Source: Pontiella desulfatans (lineage in GTDB: Bacteria; Verrucomicrobiota; Kiritimatiellia; Kiritimatiellales; Pontiellaceae). Taken from it: a DNA stretch of 64,000 bases. Both the position numbers and the translations under genes were made by a program. The notes under the pieces are model-generated. The model ran no database searches. It was not told where the DNA came from and worked only from the letters and a program-made list of their open reading frames with translations. The stretch lies in contig NZ_CAAHFG010000005.1 of the NCBI RefSeq assembly GCF_900890425.1, positions 248,001 through 312,000 on the forward strand, given 5' to 3'. This document shows positions 17,377-60,433 of the stretch, in pieces; position 1 is the first letter of the stretch; each line of letters opens with the position of its first letter.

Positions 17377-17400
17377 TGCTATGAAAAGTGTGTGGCTACG

Positions 17401-23590: not shown

Positions 23591-23714
23591 CTCATTCACC
23601 TGTCTGGCAAAATGGCGTATGTTTTAAACGCATCGTTGCCTATTGTTGCCGGTGCGCAGGGTGTACACATACTGTTCTCTATAACTATTTAGGAATCGTG
23701 AAGGAGCAGGTGTG

Positions 23715-25109: not shown

Positions 25110-25189
25110 ACCACGGAATACACTGAATACACGGAACTGACTCGGCATCTGGTTTCCGTGTATTCCGTGTATTCAGTGTATTCCGTGGT
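25110..25189. repeat. Perfect 27-bp inverted repeat between two sulfatases
   Basis: ACCACGGAATACACTGAATA (continuing CACGGAA) at 25110-25136 is exactly reversed at 25163-25189, around a 26-nt loop. It starts at the base after the sulfatase stop codon and ends 17 bp before the next ATG. It is an extreme form of the ACCACAGAG-type family. Confidence 0.95.
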
Positions 25190-25206
25190 CAAAATGGAGT
25201 TTGATC

Positions 25207-26586
25207 ATGAGAATCGTAAAGTTGCTGAGTGTGTTTCTTTTGTCCGTGGTTGCGGTGCAGGCGGAGAAGAAGCCGAACATTATCATCCTGCTGGTTGATG
25301 ACATGGGCTATGGCGATCTGGGTTGCTATGGGCAGGAAGTCATCAAGACGCCCAATCTCGATGCGCTGGCCGCAAAGGGGCTGCGCTTTACGGATTTCTA
25401 TGCGGGGTGTTCGGTTTGCTCGCCGTCGCGCGGCGTGCTGATGACCGGCATCCACGCCGGGCATGCAACCATCCGTGGCAACAAAGGTTTCATTCCGGTG
25501 GATGGAAGCTGGGATCGGATTGCGCTGAAAAAATCCGAAGTCACCCTGGCCGAAATGCTGAAGGGTGCCGGATACCAAACGGCGTTTGTCGGCAAGTGGC
25601 ACCTGGGCATTCCGCAGGATGTATCCACCTGGGCGACCGGGCGCGGGTTCGATTTTGCGGTGCAGGAACAGTGGGGGCCAACCCCCGAGGGCGGCCAATA
25701 CGATGAACGCGACCATTGGGTGAATGGCTGCACCGAAAGCATCTTCCACGACTACACCCAGCACGACTGCCTGGATGAGTTCCGCACCGATATTGTTCTG
25801 GATTTTTTGAAGAAGGATCGCGATTCGGATAAGCCGCTCTTCCTGTTCATGTCCTACCGCAGCCCACATGCGCACGAATTCCATCTGCGCGAAACGGAGC
25901 GCTACAAGGAATTCGGTTGGCCGGAGATCGAGCGCCGCCACGCTTCGCGCATCACCATGCTCGATGAACAGATCCAGCGTCTGCTGGATCGGCTGGAGGC
26001 CATGGGCGAGCTCGACAATGCCTTCATTCTCTTCACCTCCGACAACGGCCCCCATGCGGAAGGCCCCAAGGGCGGCCCAAAGCATGATCCGCTGTTCTTC
26101 AAGAGTTCGCACGGATTGAAAGGGCACAAGCGCGATATGTATGAAGGCGGCATCCGAGTTCCCGGCTTTGTCTATTGGAATGGCAAATCCATCCAGGGGA
26201 CGACCAGCCACCCGGCGACCTTCTACGATGTGATGCCGACGCTGGCGGAAGTGGCCGGCATCGAAGCGCCGGAGCAGACGGATGGCATCTCCTTCCTCCC
26301 CACCGTGCTCGGCAAGCAGCAAAAGAAGCATGACCATCTCTATTGGGAAATTGCGGAATCCAATTCGGCCAAGGCCTTCCGCCAGGCGACGCGCCGCGGC
26401 GACTGGAAAGCCGTGCGCTATGGACAACATGCAGACGTTGAGCTCTACTATCTTAAGGATGATCTTTATGAAACAAACGACGTCGCCAAGAAATATCCGG
26501 AGATCGCCGAACGCATGGAAAAAATCCTCAATGCGGAAACGACGAAGAGCGTGAACTATCCGTACGCGGGGGGGGGGGGTAAATGA
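25207..26586 (+). CDS. Exported S1-type sulfatase with G-tract at the 3' end
   Basis: A 459-residue sulfatase. ATG 25207 follows GGAG; the TTG at 25201 is also in frame but less likely. The signal peptide is MRIVKLLSVFLLSVVAVQA, then NIIILLVDDMGYGDLGCYGQ and CSPSR (Cys about 71). GKWHLGIPQD and TSDNGPH are also present. The protein ends AGGGGK because a run of 12 G sits just before the stop; slippage there would change the last residues only. It probably pairs with the upstream sulfatase to remove two different sulfate groups. Confidence 0.93.
   Translation: MRIVKLLSVFLLSVVAVQAEKKPNIIILLVDDMGYGDLGCYGQEVIKTPNLDALAAKGLRFTDFYAGCSVCSPSRGVLMTGIHAGHATIRGNKGFIPVDGSWDRIALKKSEVTLAEMLKGAGYQTAFVGKWHLGIPQDVSTWATGRGFDFAVQEQWGPTPEGGQYDERDHWVNGCTESIFHDYTQHDCLDEFRTDIVLDFLKKDRDSDKPLFLFMSYRSPHAHEFHLRETERYKEFGWPEIERRHASRITMLDEQIQRLLDRLEAMGELDNAFILFTSDNGPHAEGPKGGPKHDPLFFKSSHGLKGHKRDMYEGGIRVPGFVYWNGKSIQGTTSHPATFYDVMPTLAEVAGIEAPEQTDGISFLPTVLGKQQKKHDHLYWEIAESNSAKAFRQATRRGDWKAVRYGQHADVELYYLKDDLYETNDVAKKYPEIAERMEKILNAETTKSVNYPYAGGGGK
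26568..26579. repeat. 12-base G homopolymer at the sulfatase 3' end
   Basis: Twelve consecutive G, followed by TAAATGATGA. It encodes the Gly run before the stop. Length errors in sequencing are also possible here. Confidence 0.85.
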
Positions 26587-26717
26587 TGATCGGTGACGCC
26601 GGTTTGCGGAAGGTGTCGTGAAACATGGGGCTGCATCACATGCTGACTGTGTAGTGCCTTTGGCACATTGACTGTTGTTGGGTTTTATGCGGATATGAAA
26701 AAGGAAGGATGGAAGAA

Positions 26718-29054
26718 ATGAAAAAGATATGGATTGTTGCGGCGTTACTGGTGGCCTTGGGTCTGGCGGGGTGCAAAGAGGTTTCGGAAAACACCATCAG
26801 CGTGAATGCGGATTGGAAGTTCCAGCGGTTGGAGAATCCCGAGGCGGACACCGCCGGATTCGAGGCGGTTGTGTTCGACGATTCCGCCTGGGAGATCGTA
26901 AGCCTGCCGCACTCGGCCTATCTGGAGCCGCTGGTCATCACCGATCAATGGCAAGGCGTCTGCTGGTACCGCAAGGATTTCGATGTTGATAAAGAATTAC
27001 TCGGGAAAAAAATCATCCTCACGCTCGAAGGCGCGATGAGCCAGTCGCAGGTTTGGATCAATGGCAAACTGGCTAAGGAACGCGCGGGCGGCTATCTGCC
27101 GGTGGTGGTCGACGCGTCGGACTTCGTGAAGGAAGGCAGGAACCAGCTGGCGATCCGCCTCGACAGCCGCGACAATCCGTTAACCGGGCCCAAGCCGGTC
27201 AAGCGCCTCGATTTCTGCATGTACAGTGGTCTCTACCGCAATGTGCTCATTACCCTCAAGGATGAGCTGCACATCTCGCATCCGGTGCTGGCCGACAAGG
27301 TTGCCGGCGGTGGCGTGTTTGTCACCTTCCCGAAGGTGTCCGAGGATGAGTCGGTCGTGAAGGTGAAGACCCATGTCGTTAATGGGGACGACGAGGCCGA
27401 GACCGCAATCGTGCTCCACGAACTGTTTTTCGACGGCAAGCTGGTCGCCAAGCAATCGTCCGCGCCGGTTGAAATCAAGGCTGGCGGCGATGCCGAATTC
27501 GTTCAAGAGATCAAGGTGGCCGGCGCCCAGCTGTGGTCGCCCGATGCACCGAATCTCTACACGCTGAAAACCTCCGTGCTGGAAGGGGACGAGGTGGAGG
27601 ATGTGGTAACCTGCCGGATCGGTATCCGCGCGTTCGAGTTTCGCAACGGCCACGAACTTTTCCTCAACGGCGAAAAGATTTTCCTGCGCGGCACCAACCG
27701 CCACCAGGACTATCCCTACATCGGCTACGCGCTCTCCGACAACGCGCAGTGGCGCGACGCCAAGCTGATCAAGGATGGCGGCTTCAACTGCATCCGCCTC
27801 TCGCACTATCCGCATTCGCCGGCCTTCATGGATGCCTGCGACGAATTGGGCCTGATCACGATCGATGCCATCATGGGCTGGCAGTATTACAACGACGACG
27901 ACCGCTTCCGCGAATATTGCTACCGCTCCGCCCGCGAGCTGATCCGCCGCGACCGCAACCACCCCTGCGTGCTGACCTGGGAGGTTTCGCTGAACGAAAC
28001 CAAGATGCCGGAATTTTTCATGGACGAGCTGCACCGCATCACCCATGCCGAGTATCCGGGGAACAACACGTTCTCCTGCGGTTGGATGGACTATGCCTAC
28101 GACATCTTTTTCCAGGCGCGCCAGCACCGCATTCTGCATGGCTTCCATCCCAAGCTCGAAAAGCCCTACTTTGTTTCGGAATACGGCGACTGGGAATATT
28201 TTTCCAACAACGCCGGGCTCAACCAGGACCAGCTGGACAAGGCCCGCCGCCTCGAGACCAGCAGCCGCCAGGCGCGCGGCTTCGGTGAAAAGCGCCTGCT
28301 GCAGCAATGCTACAACCTGCAGGAATCGCACAACGACAACCTCGGCACCTACGCCTTCGGCGATGGCTACTGGGTGTGGAACGACTACAACCGCGGCTAT
28401 GCCCAGGACATTGAATATTCCGGCGTCGTCGATCTCTTCCGCATCCCGAAGTTTGCCTATTATTTTTATCAGAGCCAGCGCGATCCCGCGCAGGGCGCCA
28501 TGGTCAACGTAGCCAGCTGGTGGACGCCGGAATCCGCAACCGACGTGAAAGTGCATTCCAACTGCGAAGAGGTTGAGCTGCTCCTGAACGGCAACTCCGT
28601 TGCAAGGCAGAAGCCCGACTCGAATAAAAACACTACGAAACTTGGGCATCCGCCGTTCACCTTCACGGTGGTCACGTTTACACCCGGCACGCTCAAGGCG
28701 GTCGGCTACATTGGTGGCAAGCCCGTCGCCGAGCACGTCGTCCAAACGCCCGGCAAGGCCGTGGCGCTCAAGGTGTGGCTTGGCGAAAACGGCAAGGCGC
28801 CGGAAGCGGGCGTCAGCGACACCGTCTTTGCCTACATCGCCGCCGTCGATGAAAACGGAACCGTGGTTCCAACCTTCTCCGATGAAGTCAGTCTGAAGCT
28901 GACGGGGGATGTGAAGCTGATGAACGTCGATTGCATCATGGCCGAAGCCGGCATCGCCACCGCGCTGCTGCAGATCGGTGCGGAGGACGGAGCCATAAAT
29001 TTGTCAGCCGAGCATGGTGACATGAAAGGAAGCCTCACCTTCCACGCGGAGTAG
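26718..29054 (+). CDS. GH2 beta-galactosidase-like lipoprotein
   Basis: ATG 26718 lies 9 bp after AAGGAAGG and opens a lipoprotein signal with lipobox LAGC (Cys 19), giving 778 residues anchored to a membrane. The GH2 sandwich domain starts at ISVNADWKFQRL, and RGTNRHQDYPYIGYAL is typical of the barrel start. The acid/base Glu is about 427, in WEVSLNET where most relatives read WSLGNE. The nucleophile Glu is about 488, in FVSEYGDW. The C-terminus is a DUF4982-like and Ig-like region. It likely cleaves beta-galactosyl, or a related, linkage at the cell surface or in the periplasm. The altered acid/base motif suggests a substrate unlike that of the other two GH2 enzymes. Confidence 0.88.
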   Translation: MKKIWIVAALLVALGLAGCKEVSENTISVNADWKFQRLENPEADTAGFEAVVFDDSAWEIVSLPHSAYLEPLVITDQWQGVCWYRKDFDVDKELLGKKIILTLEGAMSQSQVWINGKLAKERAGGYLPVVVDASDFVKEGRNQLAIRLDSRDNPLTGPKPVKRLDFCMYSGLYRNVLITLKDELHISHPVLADKVAGGGVFVTFPKVSEDESVVKVKTHVVNGDDEAETAIVLHELFFDGKLVAKQSSAPVEIKAGGDAEFVQEIKVAGAQLWSPDAPNLYTLKTSVLEGDEVEDVVTCRIGIRAFEFRNGHELFLNGEKIFLRGTNRHQDYPYIGYALSDNAQWRDAKLIKDGGFNCIRLSHYPHSPAFMDACDELGLITIDAIMGWQYYNDDDRFREYCYRSARELIRRDRNHPCVLTWEVSLNETKMPEFFMDELHRITHAEYPGNNTFSCGWMDYAYDIFFQARQHRILHGFHPKLEKPYFVSEYGDWEYFSNNAGLNQDQLDKARRLETSSRQARGFGEKRLLQQCYNLQESHNDNLGTYAFGDGYWVWNDYNRGYAQDIEYSGVVDLFRIPKFAYYFYQSQRDPAQGAMVNVASWWTPESATDVKVHSNCEEVELLLNGNSVARQKPDSNKNTTKLGHPPFTFTVVTFTPGTLKAVGYIGGKPVAEHVVQTPGKAVALKVWLGENGKAPEAGVSDTVFAYIAAVDENGTVVPTFSDEVSLKLTGDVKLMNVDCIMAEAGIATALLQIGAEDGAINLSAEHGDMKGSLTFHAE

Positions 29055-30103: not shown

Positions 30104-31105
30104 CTACGTGTTGATTTCAATTCCCGGCGCAATCTTTTCCTGCACGGGCTTGGGGAATTCCTGGGTGATCCATTCGAGGGCGGAGCGGAACATGGTGTTC
30201 CAATCCTGCCGGATGCAGATCAGGCCGGGGGTGTCGTCGGGCGCTTCGTTCCAGTCGGAGGTGATCAGGTGGATATCGCGCCCGTGCTTCAGGCCGCGTT
30301 CGTACATGCCGGCCATCACGTAGGGCGTCATGTAGTGGTCGGGGATGAACCAGCAGTCGGCCTTCAGGTCGAGCGCGCCGGAGACGGCCTGCATGATGCC
30401 GCTTTGGTCGCGCGCGGTCTTGCGCGGGCCGGAGACGAGCTTGAAGCCGTGGCGCGTGGCGGATTCATAGAAACAGATTTCGCGTTCGCTTAGATAGTAT
30501 TCCAGCGGATTAAGGAAGGCCGGCATGATGCCCAGCGTGGCATCGGGCATCCGTTCTTTCAGCGCGTCGAGCGCGGTCTCCATCCCGTGCATGGTGTCGG
30601 TGGCGAACCAGTTGTGTTCCGGCACGGCGCGGTTGATGAGCGCCTGGGTATAGCCGGCCTTGCGCAGCTCCTCGATCACCCCGAAGCTGCTCAGGGCAGG
30701 GCGGTTCCAGACGATGCGCGCCATGCGATCCTTGCGGATGAGGTGCAGGTGTTTTTCCAGTTCGTGGCAACCGACCATGGTGAGGTTTTGCTGAAGGCCA
30801 AGTTCGCCGATCAGCATGTTCCATTGCCGCTCCATGAATTGGCTGTGCACGCACAAGAGTTCGGTGTTGAGGATCAAGTAGAGGTTGGGCGTCTCCCGGC
30901 CTCCAGCCACATAGGTTCCCGAGCCTTTGATGGAGACGAGCATGCCGTCGGCGCAAAGCTCGCCAACCAGCTTATCGACCGAGGCGCGGGCCAGTCCCAG
31001 CTCCGCCATCAGTTCGTGGCGCGTGGGCAGCCGGGCGCCCGGCGCATAGTCGCCGCGCTGGATTTTGCGGATGATCGCGGTCTTGGCCTGTTCAAGTTTG
31101 CTCAT
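30104..31105 (-). CDS. GntR-headed, LacI-type sugar regulator (AraR-like)
   Basis: A 333-residue repressor or activator; ATG 31105 (MSKLEQAKTAII) is preferred to 31129. Residues about 1-72 form a GntR winged helix (GDYAPGARLPTRHELMAELG, then SIKGSGTYVAGG). The rest is a LacI/periplasmic-binding-like sugar sensor. This combination is known in AraR-type regulators. It is transcribed away from the sugar operon that starts at 31228, and the 120-bp space between them holds nested inverted repeats. It likely controls that operon and itself in response to a sugar released from the polysaccharide. A copy of its last codons is stranded at 29139-29220. Confidence 0.87.
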   Translation of the reverse strand: MSKLEQAKTAIIRKIQRGDYAPGARLPTRHELMAELGLARASVDKLVGELCADGMLVSIKGSGTYVAGGRETPNLYLILNTELLCVHSQFMERQWNMLIGELGLQQNLTMVGCHELEKHLHLIRKDRMARIVWNRPALSSFGVIEELRKAGYTQALINRAVPEHNWFATDTMHGMETALDALKERMPDATLGIMPAFLNPLEYYLSEREICFYESATRHGFKLVSGPRKTARDQSGIMQAVSGALDLKADCWFIPDHYMTPYVMAGMYERGLKHGRDIHLITSDWNEAPDDTPGLICIRQDWNTMFRSALEWITQEFPKPVQEKIAPGIEINT

Positions 31106-31138
31106 TCGAATGGATTTAGGGGTATGCAAATAAAAATA

Positions 31139-31203: not shown

Positions 31204-31227
31204 GATTGGTTCATAAAGGTGCCTGAT

Positions 31228-32058
31228 ATGAATATATATATGCCTAGCATGTTTGGTAGGTTGCTCGCGGTGCTGCTGTGTTGTGTGGCCGTGCGGGCGG
31301 AGCGGCCGTTCTTTCCGTTCGACAACGGGCTGACGGATGTGAAGTCGGTTGAGGAGCAGGCGAAGCTGCTCAAGGAGCTGGGCTATGACGGCATCTGCAC
31401 GCGGCCGCCAAACTGCACGCCCGAGCTGTTGGAGGCGTTCGACCGGCATGGCGTGAAAATCATGGCCAGCTATGTGACGCTCGCCCCCGATCCGGACAAG
31501 TTTCCCGGGAATCTGGAACAGCATTTCATGCAGCTCCAGGGGCGCGGCACCCTGGTTTGGCTGGGGATCAGCAATGCGAAGGCCAACGAAACGCCGGCGG
31601 TGGAAACCATCCGGAAAACGTGCGACCTGGCAAAGAAGTATGGGTTGGAGGTGGTGCTCTATCCCCACATTAATTTCCGCACCGATACCGTTGAACGCAC
31701 GGCGCATCTGATGAAGTTGGCTGGCCGCGATAACCTGGGAATCAGTTTTAACGTTTGTCATTTCCTGGCCCAGAGCCCTGACGGGAAGCTGGAGGAAACC
31801 ATCCAGTCAATCGCCCCCAACCTCAAACTGGTGCAGGTGAGCGGGGCCAACATGATTCCCGAACCAAAATCCGACTGGAACCAGCTGATCCTGCCGTTGG
31901 GCGAGGGCGACTTCGATATGAAGCGTGTTTTCAAAACCCTGGACGAGGTGGGGTATGCCGGGCCGGTCAATCTGCAGTGCTACCGGGTGCCGCTGCCCGC
32001 GAAGGAACAGTTGAACAAATCAATGAACGCTTGGAGAAAATACCATGAACAACCGTAG
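31228..32058 (+). CDS. Exported xylose-isomerase-like TIM-barrel protein
   Basis: About 276 residues. ATG 31228 has AAAGG upstream; later ATGs at 31240 and 31249 would shorten the leader. The N-terminus is a signal peptide (FGRLLAVLLCCVAVRA). The body is a sugar phosphate isomerase/epimerase (AP endonuclease 2) barrel, with KLLKELGYDGICTRPP, VLYPHIN, SFNVCHF and GEGDFDMKRVFKTL supplying strand ends and metal-ligand positions. It would isomerise or epimerise a free sugar. It overlaps the next gene by 14 bp and heads the operon facing the regulator. Confidence 0.8.
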   Translation: MNIYMPSMFGRLLAVLLCCVAVRAERPFFPFDNGLTDVKSVEEQAKLLKELGYDGICTRPPNCTPELLEAFDRHGVKIMASYVTLAPDPDKFPGNLEQHFMQLQGRGTLVWLGISNAKANETPAVETIRKTCDLAKKYGLEVVLYPHINFRTDTVERTAHLMKLAGRDNLGISFNVCHFLAQSPDGKLEETIQSIAPNLKLVQVSGANMIPEPKSDWNQLILPLGEGDFDMKRVFKTLDEVGYAGPVNLQCYRVPLPAKEQLNKSMNAWRKYHEQP

Positions 32059-33358
32059 AACCCTTCTGAAAACATCGGCGGTCGCCGGAACCGCTTTCTC
32101 GATTCTTCCCGCCTGGGGGCAGGCCGCACCTTCGAAGCGCGTCAACATGGCGATGATCGGGGTCGGGCGCCAGGGAACCAACGCCAACATGGGAACCTTT
32201 CTTGGGATGGACAACGTCCGGGTCGTCGCCGTTTGCGATGTCGATCGCCTGCGCATGGTTCACGCCAAGAAAAAGGTGGACGAACGCTATGGCGACACCG
32301 CCTGCAAAATCTTCGGCGACTTCCGCGAGGCACTTGAACTGCCGGGGCTGGACGCCGTCATGGTTTCCACCACCGACCATTGGCATGCCATCATTGCGCT
32401 CGCCGCCATGAAGAAGGGACTGCACGTCTGCTGCGAAAAGGCGATGACGCGCTATTTCGACGAAGGCCGCGCGCTGGCCGACATGGCGAAAAAGAGTGGC
32501 GTGGTTTTCCGCCTCGATAGCGAATGCCGTTCGCACGCCTACATGCAGAAGACCGCCAACCTGGTGAAGAACGGATACATCGGAAACATTACCCGAATGG
32601 AAGTGGGGGTTCCGGTTGAATTCCAAAAGGGCGGTGGTGATCCCGCAGTGGTTCCCGTTCCCGAATATCTGGATTATGAAATGTGGCAGGGGCCGGCGCG
32701 GTTGCGGCCCTATTCGGTGGATCGCGTCCACAAGACCAATCCCGAAACCGGCGCGTGGATGGGGCGTCCCGGCTGGTTGCGTCTCCAGGACTATTGCTCC
32801 GGCATGATCTGCAATTGGGGAGGGCACCTGATCGATGTCGCCAACTTCATCAATGGTACCAGCCACACGGGCCCCGTTAGTTGCGAAGGGGCGGGATCGT
32901 TTGATTCGGGAGGTCTATGGGACACCATCAACGCGTTCGAGCTGCAATATAAATATGCCAACGGCGTGGTCATGGATTACAAGATCAAGGTGCCGTATCT
33001 GCGCATCGAAGGCGACGAGGGCTGGATCCAGGCGCATTGGCACAGCGAAGGCGGCCTGCAGGCGCACAACAAGGAAATTTTCCGCACCAAGTTCAGGGAG
33101 ACCGACACGATGGTTCCGAGTCGTTCCGATAAGCGCGACTTCATCTCCGCCATTACCGAAGGCACGCCGGTCATGATCGATGCCGAGGCTGGGCACCGCG
33201 TCAACTCGCAATGCCTGCTCGGCCTCGCCACCGTCAAGGCCGGGACGCGGCTCGAGTGGGATCCGAAAACCGAGAAGGTGACCAACAGCGCCAAGGGCGA
33301 AGCGGCCATGAAGGAAACCTATCACCGCGGCGAATGGAAGCTGGAGAACTTCATTTGA
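32045..33358 (+). CDS. Gfo/Idh/MocA-family oxidoreductase with Tat-like signal
   Basis: A 437-residue NAD(P)-dependent sugar dehydrogenase-type protein. The N-terminus has a twin-arginine-like leader (NNRRTLLKTSAVAGTAFSIL), usual for PVC members of this family. The nucleotide-binding fold follows (NMAMIGVGRQGTNANMGTF, VVAVCDVD). TTDHWHAIIALAAMKKGLHV and CCEKAM replace the usual EKP motif region, with Lys retained. GGHLIDVANF gives the conserved His. It overlaps both neighbours (14 bp upstream, 4 bp downstream) and is tightly co-expressed. It probably oxidises or epimerises the sugar handled by this operon. Confidence 0.88.
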   Translation: MNNRRTLLKTSAVAGTAFSILPAWGQAAPSKRVNMAMIGVGRQGTNANMGTFLGMDNVRVVAVCDVDRLRMVHAKKKVDERYGDTACKIFGDFREALELPGLDAVMVSTTDHWHAIIALAAMKKGLHVCCEKAMTRYFDEGRALADMAKKSGVVFRLDSECRSHAYMQKTANLVKNGYIGNITRMEVGVPVEFQKGGGDPAVVPVPEYLDYEMWQGPARLRPYSVDRVHKTNPETGAWMGRPGWLRLQDYCSGMICNWGGHLIDVANFINGTSHTGPVSCEGAGSFDSGGLWDTINAFELQYKYANGVVMDYKIKVPYLRIEGDEGWIQAHWHSEGGLQAHNKEIFRTKFRETDTMVPSRSDKRDFISAITEGTPVMIDAEAGHRVNSQCLLGLATVKAGTRLEWDPKTEKVTNSAKGEAAMKETYHRGEWKLENFI

Positions 33359-34494
33359 AAATCGAAACGGTAGAGGTCTTCCCGCTCGAATATCCAACCA
33401 AGGGCTACTTTAAGTTTTTCACCACGCCGCTCGGCCATTCCGGCCGCCCGGCGGTGATGATCAAGTTGACGACGGCTGACGGGCTGGTCGGTTGGGGGCA
33501 GGCGGTGCCCATTGCAACATGGTGTTCGGAAACATTGGAAGCTTCGGTCATTGCCCTGAAAAACTATTATGCACCGTCGCTGATCGGGCAGGAGATCGAA
33601 ACCATTGCCGATGCCCACCTGATCATGGAAAAGGCGATCCGCCCCGAATTTTCCACCAGCATGCCGTTGACGCGCGCCGGGATCGACATGGCGCTGCACG
33701 ACCTCTTCGGCAAGGCGCAGGGCCAATCGTTGGCCGAACTGTGGGGGCGTCCGCGCCGCGGCAGGATGGAGTTAAGTTGGACGGTCAATGTGACCTCGCT
33801 CGACGGTGTCGGGGAATCGGTCAACGCAGGCAAGCGCTTGGGCTACCGCCACTTCAACGTCAAGGTTGCCCCCGATCCCGTGTTCGACCTCGAGGTGGTG
33901 AAAATGGTGCGCGATGCCGCGCCCGACGGTTTCTTGTGGACCGATGCGAATACGGCCTACACGGTCGACGACGCCTTGTCGGTTGCGCCCAAACTGGCCG
34001 ACCTCGGCGTACAGGTTTTTGAATCCCCGCTGCCGCCCAACCGCATTAGCGGCTATCAGGCGCTGAAGAAACAGGGGGCACTGGATGTCTACATGGATGA
34101 GGGCGTTGTCAGCCCCGTCGAGTTGGAGGAGTTCATCAAACTCGGCATGCTCGACGGCATGGCGATGAAGCCCTCGCGCTGCGGGGGGCTGACCTCCAAC
34201 AAGCGGCAGATCGAACTCTGCATGGAGCACGGCCTCAAGTGGGTGGGCAGTGGCCTGTGCGATCCCGACCTCTCGCTCGGCGCGGCGCTCTCTCTCTACG
34301 ATGCCTTCGGCCTGCCCGAAGCCGCGGCGCTCAACGGCCCGCAGTTCCTCGATGCCTCGGTGCTCAAGAATCCCGTCGTGATCGAAAACGCGGTCGCCGA
34401 AGTTCCCGACGGCCCCGGCCTGGGACTGGAAGTGGACGAAGAAAAACTAAATGCCCTGTCTGCCGAAACGGCGGAGAGGTGGGGATTGAAGTAG
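33355..34494 (+). CDS. Enolase-superfamily (mandelate racemase-like) dehydratase or cycloisomerase
   Basis: TTG 33355 overlaps the previous stop (TTGA) and has GGAG upstream, giving 379 residues. KIETVEVFPLEYPTKGYF is the capping-domain start. The barrel has HFNVKVA where the superfamily has KxK (first Lys replaced by Asn, catalytic Lys kept). The metal ligands are Asp in LWTDANTAY, Glu in QVFESPLP and Asp-Glu in VYMDEG. Lys in MAMKPSRCGG sits where MLE-type enzymes have a catalytic residue. Family members dehydrate sugar acids or isomerise their lactones; a 3,6-anhydro-galactonate cycloisomerase role would fit the galactan setting but is inferred. The stop codon is supplied by the repeat at 34491. 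Confidence 0.85.
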   Translation: MKIETVEVFPLEYPTKGYFKFFTTPLGHSGRPAVMIKLTTADGLVGWGQAVPIATWCSETLEASVIALKNYYAPSLIGQEIETIADAHLIMEKAIRPEFSTSMPLTRAGIDMALHDLFGKAQGQSLAELWGRPRRGRMELSWTVNVTSLDGVGESVNAGKRLGYRHFNVKVAPDPVFDLEVVKMVRDAAPDGFLWTDANTAYTVDDALSVAPKLADLGVQVFESPLPPNRISGYQALKKQGALDVYMDEGVVSPVELEEFIKLGMLDGMAMKPSRCGGLTSNKRQIELCMEHGLKWVGSGLCDPDLSLGAALSLYDAFGLPEAAALNGPQFLDASVLKNPVVIENAVAEVPDGPGLGLEVDEEKLNALSAETAERWGLK

Positions 34495-34570: not shown

Positions 34571-35542
34571 ATGGAAGTGTCACCCTCGGTTTATGAACAT
34601 GCCGCTCGATTGATCGGGCGCACGCCGTGGGAGGTGTCGCGCGAGGGCGAGCTGGTTTTTCAGGCGCATGCGGCGGCCTATGAATTCTACCGGCATGCGC
34701 CGGTCATGCCGGGCATCGATATCTACAACCTGGAGCCGGAAGCCTATGGCGCGGTGGTATCGGAACCATCGGGGCACAATATTCCCGCCATCGGAACCCA
34801 TCCATTGGAGTGCGTTGCGGATCTTTTGCAATTGGCGCCCTTGAACCCGGAAACGGACGGACGGATTCCGATGCAGATCGAGGTGGCGCGGTGGTTGAAG
34901 GACCGCTTTCCCGAAGCCGACATCCGGGTGCCGGTGAGCGGCCCCTTTTCCATTGCCAGCAACCTGGTGGGTTTCAACAACCTGCTGCTGGAGGCGGCGC
35001 TGGAGCCGGCGCTGGTGGCCAAGGCGATGCTGCATCTGGTGGATGGACAGGTGGCCTTTGCCCGGGGCATCAAAGAGGCCGGCGTGGATGTGGCCTTCTT
35101 CGAATCGGCCGCCTGCCCGCCGATGCTCTCGCCCGATCAATTCCGCGCCATCGAGCTTCCCGCGTTGCAGGAAACCATGCGCCGCATCAGCGAGGTGACC
35201 GGCACTCCCGTGCCCTGCATCATCGGCGGCAACACCGCGCCGATTGTCGATGCCATGCTCGAAACGGGCACGGGCTATCTGATTGCTCCGTTTGAAACCG
35301 ACCAGGAGCTTTTCCTACAGCGCGTCGCGCAGCGCGAGGATGTTCGCATCCGCGTCAACATCGACCTGCGGCTCGTGGCATCGGGCTCCCATGCCGAGAT
35401 CGAGGCCGAGGCCGACCGGGTATTGGCGCTTATCGGCGACCGGCCCAATGTTTGTCTGGGTACGGGGGCATTGCCCTACGAAACCGAGCCGGACAATGTG
35501 ATTCACTTAATGGACTATGTTGGGAGAGTGGCAGGTGGCTAG
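34571..35542 (+). CDS. Uroporphyrinogen-decarboxylase-family (MtaA/URO-D-like) protein
   Basis: A 323-residue cytoplasmic protein with the URO-D barrel pattern: RVPVSGPFSIASNLVGFNN, AGVDVAFFESAA, PVPCIIGGNTAPIVDAMLE and GTGALPYETEPDNV. The early PxxDIYNLEPEA stretch and the absence of a haem biosynthesis neighbour point to the corrinoid methyltransferase branch (MtaA/CmuA-like) rather than HemE. It lies between the enolase-type gene and the symporter, so it belongs to sugar use. Removal of a methyl group from an O-methylated sugar is a possible role, unproven. Its actual substrate is unknown. Confidence 0.72.
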   Translation: MEVSPSVYEHAARLIGRTPWEVSREGELVFQAHAAAYEFYRHAPVMPGIDIYNLEPEAYGAVVSEPSGHNIPAIGTHPLECVADLLQLAPLNPETDGRIPMQIEVARWLKDRFPEADIRVPVSGPFSIASNLVGFNNLLLEAALEPALVAKAMLHLVDGQVAFARGIKEAGVDVAFFESAACPPMLSPDQFRAIELPALQETMRRISEVTGTPVPCIIGGNTAPIVDAMLETGTGYLIAPFETDQELFLQRVAQREDVRIRVNIDLRLVASGSHAEIEAEADRVLALIGDRPNVCLGTGALPYETEPDNVIHLMDYVGRVAGG

Positions 35543-35587: not shown

Positions 35588-37234
35588 ATGTTTTTAGGTT
35601 TGGACATTATTATTTGGATCATTCTGGTGGTCTACTTTGCCGGCATGCTGCTGATGGGGTGGTGGAGCAAAAAAAGCGCCGGTTCGCAGGAAGGCTACCT
35701 GCTGGGCAATCGCCAGTTCGGGATTTGGATGATGATCATGCACGCCTTCGGCGCCGGTACCAATCCGGGCGACGCCGCAGGGGTGGTGACCAAAACCACC
35801 GCCACCGGCGCTTCGGGCATCTGGGTGTCGTGGATGTGGCTGTTCGGCACGCCGTTCTACTGGTTGATCGCGCCGGTCATCCGGCGCATGCGCTGCCTGA
35901 CGATGGCCGACTTTTTCGAGGAGCGCTTCGGCAAGGCTTCGAGCGTGCTTTATATTTTCGTGGCCAGCACCGGCATGGCGATCTGCCTGGCGTCGGTCAT
36001 GCTCGCCACCGTCCGCACCGTGCAGGGCATGATGGGCAAGCCGGGCGATCCCTGGTTCTTCGGCATCCTTCTCGTCACCACCATCACCTTCATGGTCTAT
36101 GGCTATTGGGGCGGTATTGTTGCCGCGGTGCGTACCGACATGGTGCAGGGCATCATGATTATTGTCCTCTCCATTCTTGCCGTACCCGCCGCCTTCAAGC
36201 TCGAGGAGGTCGCCGGGTTTGGTGGCATGCTCGAAACCTTGAGAAGCACCGACCCAAGCCTGCTAAGCCTCTTTGATCCAAAGTCGTTCCAGCTGAGCAG
36301 TGTGATCCTGCTGTGCATCAGCGCACCGCTCACCGCGCTGGCCCTGCCGCACCTCGTTAGTGTTTGCGGAGCCGGCAAGACGGAATGGGAGGGCCGCATG
36401 GGCTTCACCTGCGGCAACATGCTCAAGCGCATCTGCACCTTGGGGTGGTCGGTGCTCGGTCTTGCCTGGCTGGCCTATCTCATTAAATCCGGTTCGCCCA
36501 TCAATCCGGAAACCGCTTTTGGCGACTCCATCCGCGCGCTGCTCTCCCCGCCGCTGCAAGGGCTTATGCTCGCCTGCGTCATGGCCGCCGCCATGTCGTC
36601 GGGCGATGCGTTCCAGGTCACCGTGGCTGGATTGTTTTCGCAGAACATCTACAAGACCTTCATCAATCCCAAGGCCGAGGACAAGCAGCTGCTGGGCGTT
36701 ACCAAGATCACGGGCCTGATCATCGTGATGGTCTCGCTGGTCATTGCCATCCTGATGCGCAAGAGCATGGTGAAGGCGATCCTCGACTATTTCAACATTC
36801 TCGGCCTCGTCGGCATTTCAGTGGCCATGGGCATGGTCTGGCGGCGCATGAACACCACCGGCATGTTTGCCTGCACGCTCTCGGCCATTTCGATCTTCGT
36901 CGTCTGTCGCTACGCGCTCGACCTTCCGCGCAATTTCACCGTGGGCCTGCCGCTGCTGGCCGGCATCCTTGGCGGTATCGTCGGCAGCCTTGCCACCCCG
37001 CCGCCGGAAAAGGAAAAGTCCGATGCCTTCTACCGAAAAATCTGCACCCCCATCGGCCAGGAGCATAAGCTGGGCCTCTCGCTCGATGAAGCCGTTCCCG
37101 AATCGGAGCGCCTCTGCACCGCCGCCGGCCTCTTCATCCTGAAACCCTCCCGCCAGACCTGGGGCGGTTTCCTTTTTTTCCTGACCGCCAGCTTTGCCTG
37201 CGTCCTTCTGATGGTTGTTCTGCTGAAGGTATAA
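35588..37234 (+). CDS. Sodium/solute symporter (SSS family)
   Basis: A 548-residue membrane protein with about 13-14 hydrophobic helices, starting IIIWIILVVYFAGMLLMGWW and continuing with SQEGYLLGNRQFGIWMM, the usual SSS TM1-TM2 region. MADFFEERFGK is another family mark. SSS transporters use the sodium gradient to bring in sugars, amino acids or vitamins. It closes the operon that begins with the barrel protein at 31228 and has no nearby TonB-type partner, so it is the best candidate here for uptake of the released mono- or oligosaccharide. Confidence 0.9.
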   Translation: MFLGLDIIIWIILVVYFAGMLLMGWWSKKSAGSQEGYLLGNRQFGIWMMIMHAFGAGTNPGDAAGVVTKTTATGASGIWVSWMWLFGTPFYWLIAPVIRRMRCLTMADFFEERFGKASSVLYIFVASTGMAICLASVMLATVRTVQGMMGKPGDPWFFGILLVTTITFMVYGYWGGIVAAVRTDMVQGIMIIVLSILAVPAAFKLEEVAGFGGMLETLRSTDPSLLSLFDPKSFQLSSVILLCISAPLTALALPHLVSVCGAGKTEWEGRMGFTCGNMLKRICTLGWSVLGLAWLAYLIKSGSPINPETAFGDSIRALLSPPLQGLMLACVMAAAMSSGDAFQVTVAGLFSQNIYKTFINPKAEDKQLLGVTKITGLIIVMVSLVIAILMRKSMVKAILDYFNILGLVGISVAMGMVWRRMNTTGMFACTLSAISIFVVCRYALDLPRNFTVGLPLLAGILGGIVGSLATPPPEKEKSDAFYRKICTPIGQEHKLGLSLDEAVPESERLCTAAGLFILKPSRQTWGGFLFFLTASFACVLLMVVLLKV

Positions 37235-37546: not shown

Positions 37547-40500
37547 ATGAAAAGGACGACGATTTTGGCCTTGCTGGGCTTGGCGCTTGGGGCGCAGGCC
37601 GGGCGTGAGCGGATGGATTTCGACTTGGGTTGGAAATTTGCGTTGGGCGATCGTGCCGGCGCGGAAGCGGTCGGTTACGACGATGCCTCGTGGCGTATGC
37701 TGAACCTGCCGCACGACTGGAGCATCGAGGGCGAATACGACGAAAGCAACCCGATGGGCGACACCTGCGGCTACCTGCCGGCCGGCATTGGATGGTACCG
37801 CAAGACCATCGCCGTGGATCCGGCCTGGAAAGGCCGGCATGTCGAGATTGCGTTCGACGGCGTGTTCATGAACAGCACCGTCTGGGCCAACGGAAAGAAG
37901 CTGGGCGACCGCCCATACGGCTGGATCTCCTTCGCCTACGATGTCAGCGAGGTGATCGGGGAATCGGACTCGATCACCTTCGCGGTGCGGGTGGACAACG
38001 ACAAGCAGCCGTCCGCGCGCTGGTACACCGGCAGCGGGATCTATGCCCACACCTGGCTCGACGTTAAGGAAAAAGTGCATGTCCAGCGCGACGGAATTTT
38101 TATCCGCACCCAAGGCGACACCGTTGAAGTCGATACCGAAGTGGTCAACGGCTGCGAGAAGATGGGAAAGATGGAGATTCGCACCTCGATCATTGATCCA
38201 TCGAACACCGTGATTGCCAACGTGCAGGCCGAGTTGGATGTCCCCTGTGGGGAAACCGGCGTTTCCAAGCAAAAGATTGCGCTTTCAAACCCGGCGCGCT
38301 GGTCGGTTGAGCATCCCGTGCTCTACACCGCCATGAGCGAGGTTTTCATTAACGGGGTCCTTGTGGATTGCGTAACGACCCGCTTCGGTGTGCGCGATGT
38401 TGAATGGAATCCGAAGACCGGCCTGTGGATCAACGGCAAGAACGTCAAGTTGCAGGGCGTCTGCAACCATCAGGACGCCGGCGCGCTGGGGGCCGCGGTG
38501 CCGGACAAGATCCTGCGCTTCCGCATCGGGCAGTTGAAGGCGATGGGTTGCAACGCCATCCGCACCGCGCACAATCCGCAAACGCCGGTCTTCTACGAAA
38601 TCTGCGACGAGCTGGGCATGCTGGTGATGGACGAGATTTTCGACGGGTGGAAGCGCAAGGCCTTCGAGGACTATGGGGCGCACGCCTTCGATGAATGGTG
38701 GGAACGCGACGTCACCGACTGGATCCGGCGCGACCGCAACCATCCTTCGATCGTCATCTATAGCGTCGGCAACGAAACCCATGGCGATGTTGCGCCCGAG
38801 CTGGTGGCCAAGTGCCACGAGCACGATCCAACCCGACCGGTCACCTCCGGCCACTCCAATTCGGAAGACATGGATATCGTTGGCGTGAACGGCCACAGCG
38901 AAAAGATGGGCTGGTTCGACGAGATTGGCGACCGTACCTGGATCGGAACCGAGAACACCCACACCTGGCAGGTGCGCGGCTTCTACCGCACCAAGACCTG
39001 GTTCCGCGACGGCTTCCCGAACGCCAAGCAAAAACCCTATCCGTGCCCCGACCTCACCGACGAGGAAATCTTTACCTACGACTGGATCATCGATGCCGAC
39101 CGCTCAAACCGGAAACAGATCTTCAACTCCAGTTATGACAACGCGATGGTGCGCCTGACCGCCCGGCAAAACATCGAGCAGATCCGCGACAACCCGAACT
39201 ATGCCGGCTCCTTCCGCTGGACGGGCTACGACTATATCGGCGAGGCCGGCTATGTGCATGGCGGCTGGCCCTTTAAATCGTTCATGGGGGGCGCGATCGA
39301 CATGGCCAACTTCGAGAAGGATCTTTACTACCTCTACCAAAGCCAGTGGACGGACAAACCGATGGTTCACATGCTTCCGCACTGGACGCACCCGTCCATG
39401 AAGCAAGGTACGCTCGTTCCGGTGCAGGTCTATTCCAATTGCGACCAGGTGCAACTGTTCGTCAATGGCAAAGGGCTCGATAAGCAGGCGCCCGGCACAG
39501 CCTGGGACAAGATGCAGTGCCAGTGGATGGTGCCGTGGCAGCCGGGCGAGCTGAAGGCCGTCGGTACGAAAGACGGAAAGCGATTTGAAGAGACGATTCG
39601 CACCGCCGGCGCACCGGCGAAGATTGCCCTTTCCGTCGATGGCGAGCCGCTGGCCACCCAGGGCAAAGACATTGTTCAGGTTCGCGTCACCACGCAGGAC
39701 AAGGATGGCGAATTCTATCCCTACGGCGAAAACCGCACCTGGTTCCATGTGGTTGGCGCCGGTCGCATCAAGGCGCTCGACAACGGTAGCCCGGTGGACG
39801 TCGAGCCGCACTTCGGCACCGACAACCGCATTGCCTTCTACGGCCTTACCCGTGCCTACATCGAATCGACCGGCGAGGGCGATGTCGCGTTGCTGGCCAG
39901 CTGCATCCTCGGCGAAAAGAAACTGGTTTATTCCGATCGGGTGAGCATCGATGCCCGGTTGCTGGCATTGCGCGGCGCGTTGCCGAAGCCGAAGGTTGAA
40001 ATCTTTTACACGACCGATCAGTCGGAACCGACCGATCAATCGACTCCCTACACCGGTGCGTTCAAGGTTGAGCCGGGCACCACGGTCAAGGCGCTGGTGG
40101 TGCTCAACGGCCAGCTGGTTCAGCGGCTGGAGGAACGCTTTGCCGCCGACGAAGGTTTCATCTGGGAAGGGGGCGGCCAGCCTTCGGGCACCCCGCCCGG
40201 CGAACAGGCCGAGACGGCCGCCTTCAAGGGGGCGGAGGTTATGGGCAACGGCGAATATTTCCGGGGCAAGGGGTTTCTGCGCTTCGGCAAGGATAAGGGG
40301 GCCTATGTCGAGTGGTATCAGGAAAACGATGGCGGCGCCGGCGAGGCCGACCTGTCGATCCGCTATGGCGGAAAGATCAAGACCGAAAAAGGCCACTTGG
40401 TGAAGGTCACGGTGAACGGCGCGGTTGCGCACGAAGAACTCCTGCTGCCGAACACCCGAAACCCGGGGCGCGAATGGGCAAAGATCACGGTACCGATCCA

Positions 40501-40582
40501 GATGGGCCGCGGCGCAAACACCATCCGCATCGAACCGCTCTCCGGCGGCGGCCTCTGCATCGACGAAATCCTGGTTCGCTAG
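37547..40582 (+). CDS. Exported multidomain GH2 beta-galactosidase-like enzyme
   Basis: A 1011-residue GH2 enzyme with signal peptide MKRTTILALLGLALGAQA. The sandwich domain (NLPHDWSIEGEYDESNPMG) is followed by the immunoglobulin-like and barrel domains. Acid/base Glu is about 410 (YSVGNETHGD) and nucleophile Glu about 469 (WIGTENTHTW). After the barrel come DUF4982-like and Ig-like regions (QVYSNCDQVQLFVNGK, IVQVRVTTQDKDG), a chitobiase C-terminal-like stretch (PKPKVEIFYTTDQSEP) and a carbohydrate-binding-type beta-sandwich at the end. It begins a set with the next two genes, 3 bp and about 27 bp apart. It probably removes beta-galactose from desulfated oligosaccharides outside the cytoplasm. 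Confidence 0.92.
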   Translation: MKRTTILALLGLALGAQAGRERMDFDLGWKFALGDRAGAEAVGYDDASWRMLNLPHDWSIEGEYDESNPMGDTCGYLPAGIGWYRKTIAVDPAWKGRHVEIAFDGVFMNSTVWANGKKLGDRPYGWISFAYDVSEVIGESDSITFAVRVDNDKQPSARWYTGSGIYAHTWLDVKEKVHVQRDGIFIRTQGDTVEVDTEVVNGCEKMGKMEIRTSIIDPSNTVIANVQAELDVPCGETGVSKQKIALSNPARWSVEHPVLYTAMSEVFINGVLVDCVTTRFGVRDVEWNPKTGLWINGKNVKLQGVCNHQDAGALGAAVPDKILRFRIGQLKAMGCNAIRTAHNPQTPVFYEICDELGMLVMDEIFDGWKRKAFEDYGAHAFDEWWERDVTDWIRRDRNHPSIVIYSVGNETHGDVAPELVAKCHEHDPTRPVTSGHSNSEDMDIVGVNGHSEKMGWFDEIGDRTWIGTENTHTWQVRGFYRTKTWFRDGFPNAKQKPYPCPDLTDEEIFTYDWIIDADRSNRKQIFNSSYDNAMVRLTARQNIEQIRDNPNYAGSFRWTGYDYIGEAGYVHGGWPFKSFMGGAIDMANFEKDLYYLYQSQWTDKPMVHMLPHWTHPSMKQGTLVPVQVYSNCDQVQLFVNGKGLDKQAPGTAWDKMQCQWMVPWQPGELKAVGTKDGKRFEETIRTAGAPAKIALSVDGEPLATQGKDIVQVRVTTQDKDGEFYPYGENRTWFHVVGAGRIKALDNGSPVDVEPHFGTDNRIAFYGLTRAYIESTGEGDVALLASCILGEKKLVYSDRVSIDARLLALRGALPKPKVEIFYTTDQSEPTDQSTPYTGAFKVEPGTTVKALVVLNGQLVQRLEERFAADEGFIWEGGGQPSGTPPGEQAETAAFKGAEVMGNGEYFRGKGFLRFGKDKGAYVEWYQENDGGAGEADLSIRYGGKIKTEKGHLVKVTVNGAVAHEELLLPNTRNPGREWAKITVPIQMGRGANTIRIEPLSGGGLCIDEILVR

Positions 40583-40585
40583 CAA

Positions 40586-42925
40586 ATGAAGATGACTCTA
40601 CATCGACGGAATTTTATTGGTGGCCTGGTGGTTGGCGGGACGGTGCTGCCCCGGTTGGGCATGGCCAACGAGGCCGAATGGAAGCATCTGGTTCAGCGGC
40701 TTGCGGCGAAGAAGGAGCGGCTCGCGTCAATGATCGACGAAGCGCAGCGCAAGCAACTGTGCATCGATTATGCGGAAACCTCGTTCAACGTGATTACGCT
40801 ATTCCAGCAGGCGGCGCAGCACGACCATGACCACATGGACCGGGTGCGCGAAATCTTCAAGACGTATGGCCGCTACCCGAAAATCGATCCCGTCCACACG
40901 GAGCGCCTGCCGCTGACCGAGTTGGAGGGGTGCATCGACGTGGCCGAAAGCGCGATGGCCGAACTCGAACTGCAGCTTGCGCGGAAGGCGCGGCCGGCCG
41001 CTCCGCCGGATCTGGGCCAAGGCCAAATGGAACTGGCGCCGTTTGCCTACAGGTTGGATGGCAAACCCGTGTTTCCCAGCTCGCTGGTTTGGGCGCCGGA
41101 AACCGACATCCATCGGCAGGCGTTCGGCCACATGGGCGGCGGCTATCTGCAGATTTCCCAGCTGGAACCGGATGGAACCCCCGACCCGCGCAATCTGCAG
41201 CGTTCGATTGAACGCACCCGGGAGCAGGTTGAAAAGAACGTGGCGCCGATCGTCTATCTGATGGGGCACTCCCCCGGCAAATGGCAGCAGGAAAAGCATC
41301 CGGAAATCCTGCACGGCGGCCGCAACTTTACCCAGTACGACATCGACAGCCCGTTGGTCCGCGGTTGGATCAAGAACCTGTGCGAGGGCATGCTGCCGGC
41401 ATTGTCCAAGGCCTGCGGCGACCAGCCGATGATGCACCTCGTGGCGAACGAGCCGCACTTTGCCACGGCCAAGGGCGGGTGGAAGGCCTCGAATGGTCTC
41501 TCGGATATCACTCTCGAAAAGTTCCACCGCTGGCTGGAGGCGAAGTATGAAAGCATTGCCGCGCTGAACCAGGTTTATGGAACCTCCCATTCCGGGTGGG
41601 ACGAGGTGTTGTTCCACAACCAGCCGGTTGGGAATCGGCAGATCGATCCGAGGCTGCGCGGCACCCCGGTCTGGTACGACTGGAACCGCTTCAACCAGGA
41701 ACGGGTGAGCGATTGGTTCACCTATCTAAAGGAACAAAGCCAAGCCAACGACGCCGGGCGCAAGGCGCCGATGTCGATCAAGATGCTCGGCTTCACCCTC
41801 TCGCGCAACACGCGCGACGGCGGTATGGATATTGAATATCTCACCAAGCTGCAGGATGTGATGGGCGCCGATCTGCGCGTCGCCCCCAGCGGTGCCCAGT
41901 TTTTCGGCAAGCACGAAGAGGGGATGGATCCGGAAACGGGGTGGCAAGCGCACTATGCCTACGACTGGAGCGAACAGTCGATGTATCTCGATTTCTCGAA
42001 ATCGCTCTGTCCGGAAAAGGTCTTCTACGATTCCGAGTGGCACGGCTTCGGCGCGGTGAGCTGGCGACACTTCGGCATGGGCCGCGCCTATGTGCGCTCC
42101 GCGCTTTGGCTGGCGTTCACCCATGGCATGGGCGTCATCAAACCGTGGCTGTGGGGGCGCGGCGAGGACGGTGCCTTGAGCTCCAAGACCGACCATGTCG
42201 GCGAGCTTGCCACACAGCCCATTGCAGTCGATGCCTTCGGCCGCACCATGAAGGAACTCAATGCGCATGCGGAGCATGTGGTTGCCCTGGTGCCGGCGCG
42301 GCGCGATTTCCTGATCTATTATTGCGAGGAATCCGCCATCCAGGATGAAGGCTACACGGCCGGATTCAAGGAACTCTACGAGGCGCTCAAACTGCTGAAT
42401 CTCAACGTGGGGTTCACCACCCCGAACGAGATGGGCCGGTTGGATGCCGCAACACAAACCGTGCTCGTCCCGCCCACGCCGTTTATTTCCACCAATAGCC
42501 TTGAACGGCTAAAGGCGTTCAAGGGGCGGGTGGTGCTGGTTGGCGAAAGCTTCGGTAAAAACGAAGTGGGGGCGCCGCGCGCCGCCGGGGGCATTCCTGC
42601 GCCGTTTGCAACCCTGAAGCACGACCACTCCTTTGCGCTGGTGCAACCCCTGGAGACCGTGCTGTCCCCTGTTGCGCCGAAGCCCTTGGTTGCGGTTGCC
42701 GTAACCGACAAGGGCGGACGCAAGGCCGTGGGGGTGGCCATGGGCCAAGCGACGGATGCGAAGAGCGGAAACATGTTGCTCGTGCTCAACAACCTCGGCA
42801 AGGATCCCCGCGTCGTCTCGATTGATCCGGATCTAAAGGTTGCCGATTTGATCCACCACCGTAAAATACAGAACCGCATTAAACTCCAACCGTGCGATGT
42901 GCGGTTGCTGATGGTGGCGATGTAG
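40586..42925 (+). CDS. GH42-like (clan GH-A) glycosidase with Tat-like leader
   Basis: A 779-residue protein starting 3 bp after the GH2 stop, with a twin-arginine-like leader (LHRRNFIGGLVVGGTVLP). Residues about 20-130 are helical. The central barrel has HLVANEPHFATAKGGW, where Asn-Glu-Pro fits a GH-A acid/base, and KVFYDSEWHGFG, where Glu fits the nucleophile. The later VALVPARRDFLIYYCEES region looks like the GH42 trimerisation domain. The nearest families I can recall are GH42 and GH167-type beta-galactosidases active on galactans; the exact family is not settled. It likely works with the upstream GH2 enzyme on the same oligosaccharides. Confidence 0.65.
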   Translation: MKMTLHRRNFIGGLVVGGTVLPRLGMANEAEWKHLVQRLAAKKERLASMIDEAQRKQLCIDYAETSFNVITLFQQAAQHDHDHMDRVREIFKTYGRYPKIDPVHTERLPLTELEGCIDVAESAMAELELQLARKARPAAPPDLGQGQMELAPFAYRLDGKPVFPSSLVWAPETDIHRQAFGHMGGGYLQISQLEPDGTPDPRNLQRSIERTREQVEKNVAPIVYLMGHSPGKWQQEKHPEILHGGRNFTQYDIDSPLVRGWIKNLCEGMLPALSKACGDQPMMHLVANEPHFATAKGGWKASNGLSDITLEKFHRWLEAKYESIAALNQVYGTSHSGWDEVLFHNQPVGNRQIDPRLRGTPVWYDWNRFNQERVSDWFTYLKEQSQANDAGRKAPMSIKMLGFTLSRNTRDGGMDIEYLTKLQDVMGADLRVAPSGAQFFGKHEEGMDPETGWQAHYAYDWSEQSMYLDFSKSLCPEKVFYDSEWHGFGAVSWRHFGMGRAYVRSALWLAFTHGMGVIKPWLWGRGEDGALSSKTDHVGELATQPIAVDAFGRTMKELNAHAEHVVALVPARRDFLIYYCEESAIQDEGYTAGFKELYEALKLLNLNVGFTTPNEMGRLDAATQTVLVPPTPFISTNSLERLKAFKGRVVLVGESFGKNEVGAPRAAGGIPAPFATLKHDHSFALVQPLETVLSPVAPKPLVAVAVTDKGGRKAVGVAMGQATDAKSGNMLLVLNNLGKDPRVVSIDPDLKVADLIHHRKIQNRIKLQPCDVRLLMVAM

Positions 42926-60333: not shown

Positions 60334-60433
60334 CGCCAATCTCCAGATTAAGGATGGTTCCTATATCGGAGATGGTCGCAATAAGCCAGAAATAAAACCC
60401 TTACATCAATATACGTATTTTATCTAAAAAGGG

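Follow-up and report, generated by a model that had tools for sequence, protein, structure and literature searches.

The window, a stretch of 64,000 nucleotides from Pontiella desulfatans, carries a sugar-degradation locus in which the gene of a URO-D-fold protein is embedded (Table 1). The genes follow the order xylose-isomerase-like TIM barrel, Gfo/Idh oxidoreductase, MR_MLE enzyme of the enolase superfamily, URO-D protein, SSF symporter, GH2 and GH42-like enzymes and, after the latter, a heparinase II/III-like protein. Upstream of the URO-D gene lie genes coding for a lambda-carrageenase, five sulfatases, two more GH2 enzymes and GH43-like proteins. The preliminary description had recognised a URO-D/MtaA-like protein in a sugar operon, flanked by an enolase-type enzyme and a symporter. 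Profile searches confirm both the protein and its neighbours, and the operon can now be described more sharply by its lambda-carrageenase, sulfatases and GH2, GH43 and GH42 enzymes. Red-algal galactan, proposed there as the substrate class, is supported by the lambda-carrageenase, which features all three CGLA domains. Lambda-carrageenases are known from only a few marine bacteria.

Table 1. Features of the locus and of the corrinoid-related cluster encoded elsewhere in the genome.
Feature	Coordinates	Strand	Basis or remark
Three further sulfatases	4217-5824, 5837-7480, 13018-14916		
Lambda-carrageenase	17388..20330	+	propeller, middle and C-terminal domains
Two sulfatases	23712..26586	+	
GH2	26709..29054	+	
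GntR-type regulator	30104..31129	-	divergent
Xylose-isomerase-like TIM barrel (AP_endonuc_2)	31219..32058	+	signal-peptide-like N-terminus
Gfo/Idh/MocA oxidoreductase	32045..33358	+	Pfam; twin-arginine-like N-terminus
MR_MLE enolase-superfamily enzyme	33211..34494	+	Pfam; upstream of URO-D gene
URO-D-fold protein, zinc-less family	34571..35542	+	ORF, Pfam and model; ATG start, 323 aa
SSF sodium:solute symporter	35588..37234	+	Pfam; downstream of URO-D gene
GH2	37547..40582	+	best scores with beta-galactosidase GalA/GalB models, below their cut-offs
GH42-like	40586..42925	+	
Corrinoid-to-formate cluster	G000:C1:1918040-1927875 (L101:10041-13735 + L014:1756-7876)		

The MR_MLE enzyme belongs to the muconate-cycloisomerase type (137 bits against a cut-off of 335). 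This type includes the anhydrogalactonate cycloisomerases of agar and carrageenan pathways, and the enzyme could be one of them. Judging from locus L027, its gene probably has its true start near 33355, in overlap with the end of the Gfo/Idh gene. Elsewhere in the window, two small genes at 29274-29944 (122 and 101 aa) resemble by eye a RelE/HigB-type toxin and HTH antitoxin pair, and a thiamine-pyrophosphate enzyme with an N-terminal rubredoxin-like domain is encoded at 58582-60339. The genome amounts to 8.66 Mb in 6 contigs with a G+C content of 56.6% over 0.32 Mb. Strain F1 of P. desulfatans, a cultured anaerobe from anoxic Black Sea sediment that grows on kappa-carrageenan, is given 8.6 Mbp and 56.0% G+C in the available text of its description (PMC7356697).

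Residues 9-318 of the URO-D protein match Pfam URO-D (PF01208) with 109.2 bits (cut-off 23.9, E 2.8e-31). The best NCBIfam model is that of MtaA/CmuA (TIGR01463), whose 62.2 bits lie below the cut-off of 235.4; the protein is thus MtaA-like in a weak sense. A sequence search of the PDB gave MtaA (4ay7) as sole significant match. The AlphaFold model (pLDDT 92.5, pTM 0.90) also has MtaA as its nearest structure (Z 31.9, rmsd 2.4, 309 residues aligned, 21% identity, TM 0.84), followed by HemE chains (Z 28.5-30.1), and the predicted structure places the protein among the URO-D/MtaA barrels. O-demethylases such as MtoB or CdmB were not among the matches listed in the structure searches, which excludes nothing. 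Relatives that are ~59-75% identical in several phyla indicate that 34571-35542 is far from a chance ORF.

It is extremely improbable that the protein is a uroporphyrinogen decarboxylase (HemE) or a decayed copy of one, a reading that can be regarded as nearly refuted. The Pfam fold is shared and HemE structures come only slightly behind MtaA, but the hemE model (TIGR01464) gives only 27.1 bits for a cut-off of 302.95. The N-terminal RQAGR-like motif, which we take to be the HemE signature and which is seen in the genome's own HemE, is found in none of the 34 family sequences. HemE identity was rejected on these grounds and because a bona fide hemE gene is present elsewhere (L012, G000:C3:189521, 366.7 bits). 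A decayed copy is excluded by the strong conservation of the family over several phyla.

A single scan of a species-genome collection yielded 28 loci, 27 of them with clear relatives at ~59-75% identity. Their hosts are Planctomycetes, Hydrogenedentes, one other Kiritimatiellales MAG and one Akkermansiaceae MAG. The family gene is present in 2/43 genomes of the window's own order and in 14/296 genomes of the order of G058, where members go down to 49% identity. The P. desulfatans genome has 16 other URO-D matches, only two of which are recovered in a search with the window protein, at 23-25% identity. Sequence comparison delimits a tight and distinct family common to several phyla, uncharacterised and without a name, that is neither HemE nor MtaA.

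Conserved residues were counted over 34 rows (the window, L027-L052 and L084-L090), the 60-residue L053 being left out. The motifs YEHA and DIYNLE are found in 34/34 rows, FFESA in 33/34, C-(I/V)-x-GG-(N/D)-T in 32/34 and GT-(G/A/S)-A-(L/M)-P in 31/34; the rows that lack one of the last three are cut by contig ends. The zinc ligands of MtaA, which we take to be a His-x-Cys pair and a later Cys, are missing. The H-x-C-G motif occurs in 0/34 rows, its position reading mostly I-x-G within C-I-I-G-G, and the later Cys position reads Thr. The own-genome paralogs L013 and L015 keep both zinc motifs. Membership in MtaA was rejected on the sub-threshold score and the absence of zinc ligands from all rows. 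New invariant residues of the family include C216, E178, E242 and N263 (window numbering). A substitute metal site formed by C182, C216 and C295 was considered and is unlikely because C216 alone is constant: C182 is Ala in 6/33 covering rows (L085-L090) and C295 is replaced by Ser or another residue in some.

In a tree of 46 rows the family forms one clade with 100/100 support and a long stem. CmuA and URO-D proteins from corrinoid operons served as references in place of MtvB, OdmB, MtoB and CdmB. AU tests reject neither HemE (p 0.32) nor the corrinoid-linked proteins (p 0.31) as sister group, and long branches weaken the deep order. The preliminary description had proposed such a tree, with clustering with HemE speaking against a methyltransferase: the family stands as a clade apart from HemE, while a position as its sister is still compatible with the data.

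Loss of the zinc site does not by itself exclude methyl transfer, since the UroD-superfamily methyltransferase CdmB, and likewise a Moorella O-demethylase, work without zinc according to the available part of PMC13222342. The loss argues against a thiol as methyl acceptor, and the sugar-related genes that accompany the family (see below) speak for a sugar-derived substrate. Both observations fit just as well a corrinoid-independent lyase, decarboxylase or isomerase that uses the URO-D barrel to act on a sugar acid or keto-sugar. Its substrate would be made by the proteins encoded next to it (Gfo/Idh oxidoreductase, isomerase-like barrel, enolase-type enzyme), and the missing zinc would reflect a change of chemistry away from methyl transfer. 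The new invariant residues and the long stem of the clade agree with it; that MtaA is the best match in both sequence and structure, and that zinc-less methyltransferases are known from the superfamily (PMC13222342, as far as its available text goes), do not. This reading is conceivable without being probable, and ranks equal to that of a corrinoid-dependent methyltransferase I.

The preliminary description had suggested looking for a corrinoid protein and its activating enzyme, and both are present; the lack of corrinoid proteins that would have spoken against its proposal is not observed. Profile searches detect one copy of the activase RACo and two B12-binding cap domains, one in a frame of 1275 aa, the size of MetH, the other in a stand-alone corrinoid protein (G000:C1:1924659-1925285, L014:4660-5286) whose gene adjoins that of RACo (L014:5395-7032). 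The two belong to a cluster of genes in the same direction that codes for FolD, a fusion of MetF, DUF5981 (MetV) and pterin-binding domains, a formate transporter, formate-THF ligase, the corrinoid protein, RACo and a DUF1638 protein. Corrinoid protein, activase and THF methyltransferase are thus encoded together in one cluster, which is read, from its gene content, as a route from methyl-corrinoid via methyl-THF to formate. The 824-aa fusion of MetF, MetV and a pterin-binding methyltransferase looks rare. A PocR/AraC-like regulator, its PocR match just under the cut-off, is encoded upstream on the opposite strand. Beyond an integrase-like gene lie those of an MtaA-like protein with a C-terminal thioredoxin-like domain (G000:C1:1931639-1933015, L014:11640-13016) and of a CobW protein. 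Setting aside this thioredoxin fusion, no clear donor-specific methyltransferase was seen in the cluster. The only other carrier of the family in the order, genome G008 (= G044, source of L028), has the same cluster (L095) at 77-87% identity, together with the thioredoxin fusion; inserted in the cluster there are genes of an SSF symporter and of one more URO-D protein.

Co-occurrence with corrinoid genes is broad: RACo is present in 24/26 and the B12 cap domain in 25/26 of the genomes carrying the family gene (counts that leave out L045, which shares an assembly prefix with L036, and L054, a 30% partial match). In the order of G058, RACo is found in 70/296 genomes, namely 14/14 with the gene versus 56/282 without it (Fisher 5.8e-10, kinship ignored). 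Seven of these 14 carriers were already known from the first scan; without them the figures are 7/7 versus 56/282 (p 1.8e-5). RACo matches above 300 bits separate the groups further (7/14 versus 1/282); they are labelled Wood-Ljungdahl-type from the CODH/ACS genes adjoining in the two loci examined, of eight such genomes. CODH/ACS genes lie beside RACo in L079 and L081, the two scanned among the loci of Pirellulales-type MAGs (L077-L083 and L093), and the others are alike by gene sizes; these MAGs are possibly Wood-Ljungdahl Planctomycetes, to judge from their genes. In L079, ACS and CdhD domains are fused in a protein of 1245 aa.

The association is tempered by a control. NRDD is a marker of anaerobes without a tie to corrinoids. 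It is found in 29/296 genomes, 22/29 of which have RACo (RACo, family-gene and NRDD counts are taken to cover the same 296 genomes from their identical numbers and labels). As this control gene is also tied to RACo, the link of the family with RACo is only suggestive, and anaerobic life may explain much of it. Set against NRDD, RACo is present in 14/14 family-gene genomes versus 21/28 (p 0.075). Within the window's own order the figures are 2/2 with the gene and 15/41 without (p 0.15, kinship ignored).

Across the 34 family loci beyond the window (L027-L053 and L084-L090), not one corrinoid-protein match was found next to the gene. This counts in favour of the corrinoid-free enzyme; the RACo co-occurrence counts against it. 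RACo is the adjacent gene in 1/34 loci (L044); the two genes are convergent and therefore do not form one operon, though their adjacency is a further point against an enzyme independent of corrinoids. In L042 a B12-binding radical-SAM protein, which is another kind of protein, is encoded two genes on. The best plasmid relative sits in an operon of corrinoid protein, URO-D and RACo genes. Plasmid EAL2_808p of Peptoclostridium acidaminophilum (L099) has sugar ABC transporter genes, DUF4091, a corrinoid protein and a URO-D protein in a row. The URO-D protein of this plasmid, which a different query recovered, is no more than distantly related, and the gene row suggests that it is possibly another sugar-linked corrinoid methyltransferase.

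The commonest companion of the family is a Gfo/Idh gene. It occurs on the same strand at most three genes away in 15/35 loci (the window, L027-L053 and L084-L090) and within 300 bp in 9/35, with many contigs ending early; in a comparison set of loci around RACo genes such a match was found in 1/11. All 11 Gfo/Idh companions inspected have a twin-arginine-like start. Genes in these neighbourhoods were called with an in-house ORF scorer that had a training accuracy of 0.90, and their boundaries are accordingly approximate. Other companions are MFS transporters (L027, L028, L088), isomerase-like barrels (L029, L040), an enolase-type relative (L027), a sulfatase (L033), an alpha-L-fucosidase and an arabinofuranosidase (L029) and a PL8 lyase (L028). 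The Gfo/Idh genes and, in some loci, the barrels and the enolase-type enzyme count in favour of the corrinoid-free enzyme. The enolase-type gene of the Akkermansiaceae MAG (L027:7540-8700) is seemingly frameshifted near its end. A second URO-D protein is found in L028, L048 and L049: in L049 a different one (8878-9936) lies just upstream of the family gene, and in L048 (9656-10876) it follows downstream, one Gfo/Idh gene away. Sugar context is missing from some loci: L034 offers, besides its Gfo/Idh gene, only housekeeping genes (RNase R, sigma-54), and in L043 and L046 the family gene adjoins GidB, with no sugar gene around. Ten genes beside other own-genome URO-D paralogs comprise two Gfo/Idh, two sulfatases, one sugar transporter, one beta-helix protein, one LptF/G, one desaturase-Rieske protein and two without match; judged from these ten, the genome repeatedly has URO-D genes placed in sugar loci, though not in every case.

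Several described systems are close to the family. MtaA and CmuA (methylcobamide:CoM and chloromethane methyltransferases) share its fold and are its best sequence match, and differ in the zinc motifs and in a model score that the family does not reach. HemE likewise shares the fold and differs in score and motif. MtvB, OdmB, VdmB, MtoB and CdmB belong to the UroD superfamily, which has zinc-free members (PMC13222342, available part), and depend on three partners for which this genome has genes, namely corrinoid protein, RACo and THF methyltransferase. Their substrates are aromatic ethers or haloalkanes, and the likeness is drawn from their description, not from sequence. In the accessible descriptions, systems of the MtvB/OdmB/MtoB/CdmB kind are clustered with their own corrinoid protein, which the window family is not in any of the 34 loci. 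Mlp proteins of type 1 mlp clusters are URO-D paralogs from bacteria with a link to corrinoid proteins and to activases of the RACo type; they differ as relatives of CoM methyltransferases that are clustered with the corrinoid protein (PMC10418091, in the text available). The two Mlp-like proteins compared here (L094) keep the zinc motif, unlike the window family.

These systems raise the alternative of a corrinoid methyltransferase that is carried along in sugar loci, with methyl-sulfur, methyl-selenium, methylamine or an aromatic ether as donor or acceptor. In the portions available, mlp clusters are proposed to handle methyl-sulfur compounds or methyl selenide (PMC10418091), and MtvB and MtoB act on aromatic ethers (PMC8630106). 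The genome's own corrinoid cluster, with its MtaA-like protein fused to a thioredoxin domain, could be read in the same sense. We regard this alternative as unlikely: the lost zinc ligands argue against a thiol acceptor, and sugar companions recur around the family.

The explanation that we tentatively favour, while holding it to be short of probable, sees in the protein a methyltransferase I without zinc, which hands the methyl group of an O-methylated sugar on to a shared corrinoid protein. The carrageenase, the sulfatases and the GH2 enzymes would free a sugar from red-algal galactan, and this would enter through the SSF symporter. The URO-D protein would be cytoplasmic and would accept this sugar, or a sugar acid derived from it, if it bears an O-methyl group. 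Methyl would pass to Co(I) of the single stand-alone corrinoid protein of the genome, encoded elsewhere and kept active by RACo, and then to tetrahydrofolate, to be oxidised by MetF/MetV and FolD to formate with gain of ATP. Formate would be exported, and the demethylated sugar would join normal catabolism. The sequences establish the fold, the loss of the zinc ligands, the galactan locus and the corrinoid-to-formate cluster; methyltransferase activity, use of a corrinoid protein encoded elsewhere and an O-methyl sugar as donor are all inferred, and oxygen-free removal of methyl groups from algal sugars by this system is possible.

Several lines of evidence favour this zinc-free methyltransferase I: the proximity of MtaA in sequence and fold and the existence of zinc-free UroD methyltransferases; the corrinoid/RACo/THF-to-formate cluster, in which no clear donor enzyme was seen and which recurs in the L095 genome; the RACo counts over the 26 and the 296 genomes, the enrichment of Wood-Ljungdahl-type RACo and the adjacency in L044; the corrinoid operon of the plasmid relative; and the lambda-carrageenase locus with the sugar genes near several relatives. 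Against it stand the lack of a corrinoid neighbour in 34 loci, the NRDD control, the weak separation in the own order, the absent zinc ligands, the AU tests that reject neither sister group, the convergence of the L044 genes and the lack of sugar context in L034, L043 and L046. The corrinoid-linked demethylation advanced in the preliminary description is therefore borne out in part: the corrinoid-to-formate cluster and the carrageenase lend it substance, while the missing zinc ligands, the lack of a corrinoid neighbour and the unspecific co-occurrence weigh against it.

The occurrence of O-methyl sugars in red-algal galactans, on which that proposal was built, agrees with the literature: galactose of carrageenan may be methylated and agar carries 6-O-methyl-galactose (PMC4483632, available text). 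In aerobic marine bacteria 6-O-methyl-galactose is demethylated by a P450 that needs oxygen (PMC10033563, available text). It would share with the present protein a purpose in red-algal galactan use but is an unrelated enzyme and makes formaldehyde. No report of the idea of oxygen-free O-demethylation of algal sugars was found in the one open library searched. By word search of the text available, "corrinoid" does not occur in the Pontiella papers PMC7356697 and PMC10880615, nor "uroporphyrinogen" in PMC10880615.

A wider possibility, which we consider speculative and somewhat less likely than the role proposed for the window protein, is that URO-D proteins of sugar loci are methyltransferases, each specific for its donor, and all charge a single central corrinoid protein, from which methyl groups would be converted, free of oxygen, to formate with ATP. 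The zinc-free family would then be one entry point, and other URO-D paralogs of the genome, several of which lie by Gfo/Idh, sulfatase or sugar transporter genes, would be others. This would explain the expansion of URO-D proteins in an anaerobic polysaccharide specialist, and would tie methylated polysaccharides to acetogenesis in those Planctomycetes that have Wood-Ljungdahl genes. Algal and plant polysaccharides commonly contain methylated sugars, and the idea is testable at the bench because P. desulfatans F1 is a cultured anaerobe that grows on kappa-carrageenan. Should the methyl idea fail, the family would still be worth assaying as a strictly conserved group of URO-D proteins that is devoid of the zinc site, spans several phyla and is often located among sugar genes.
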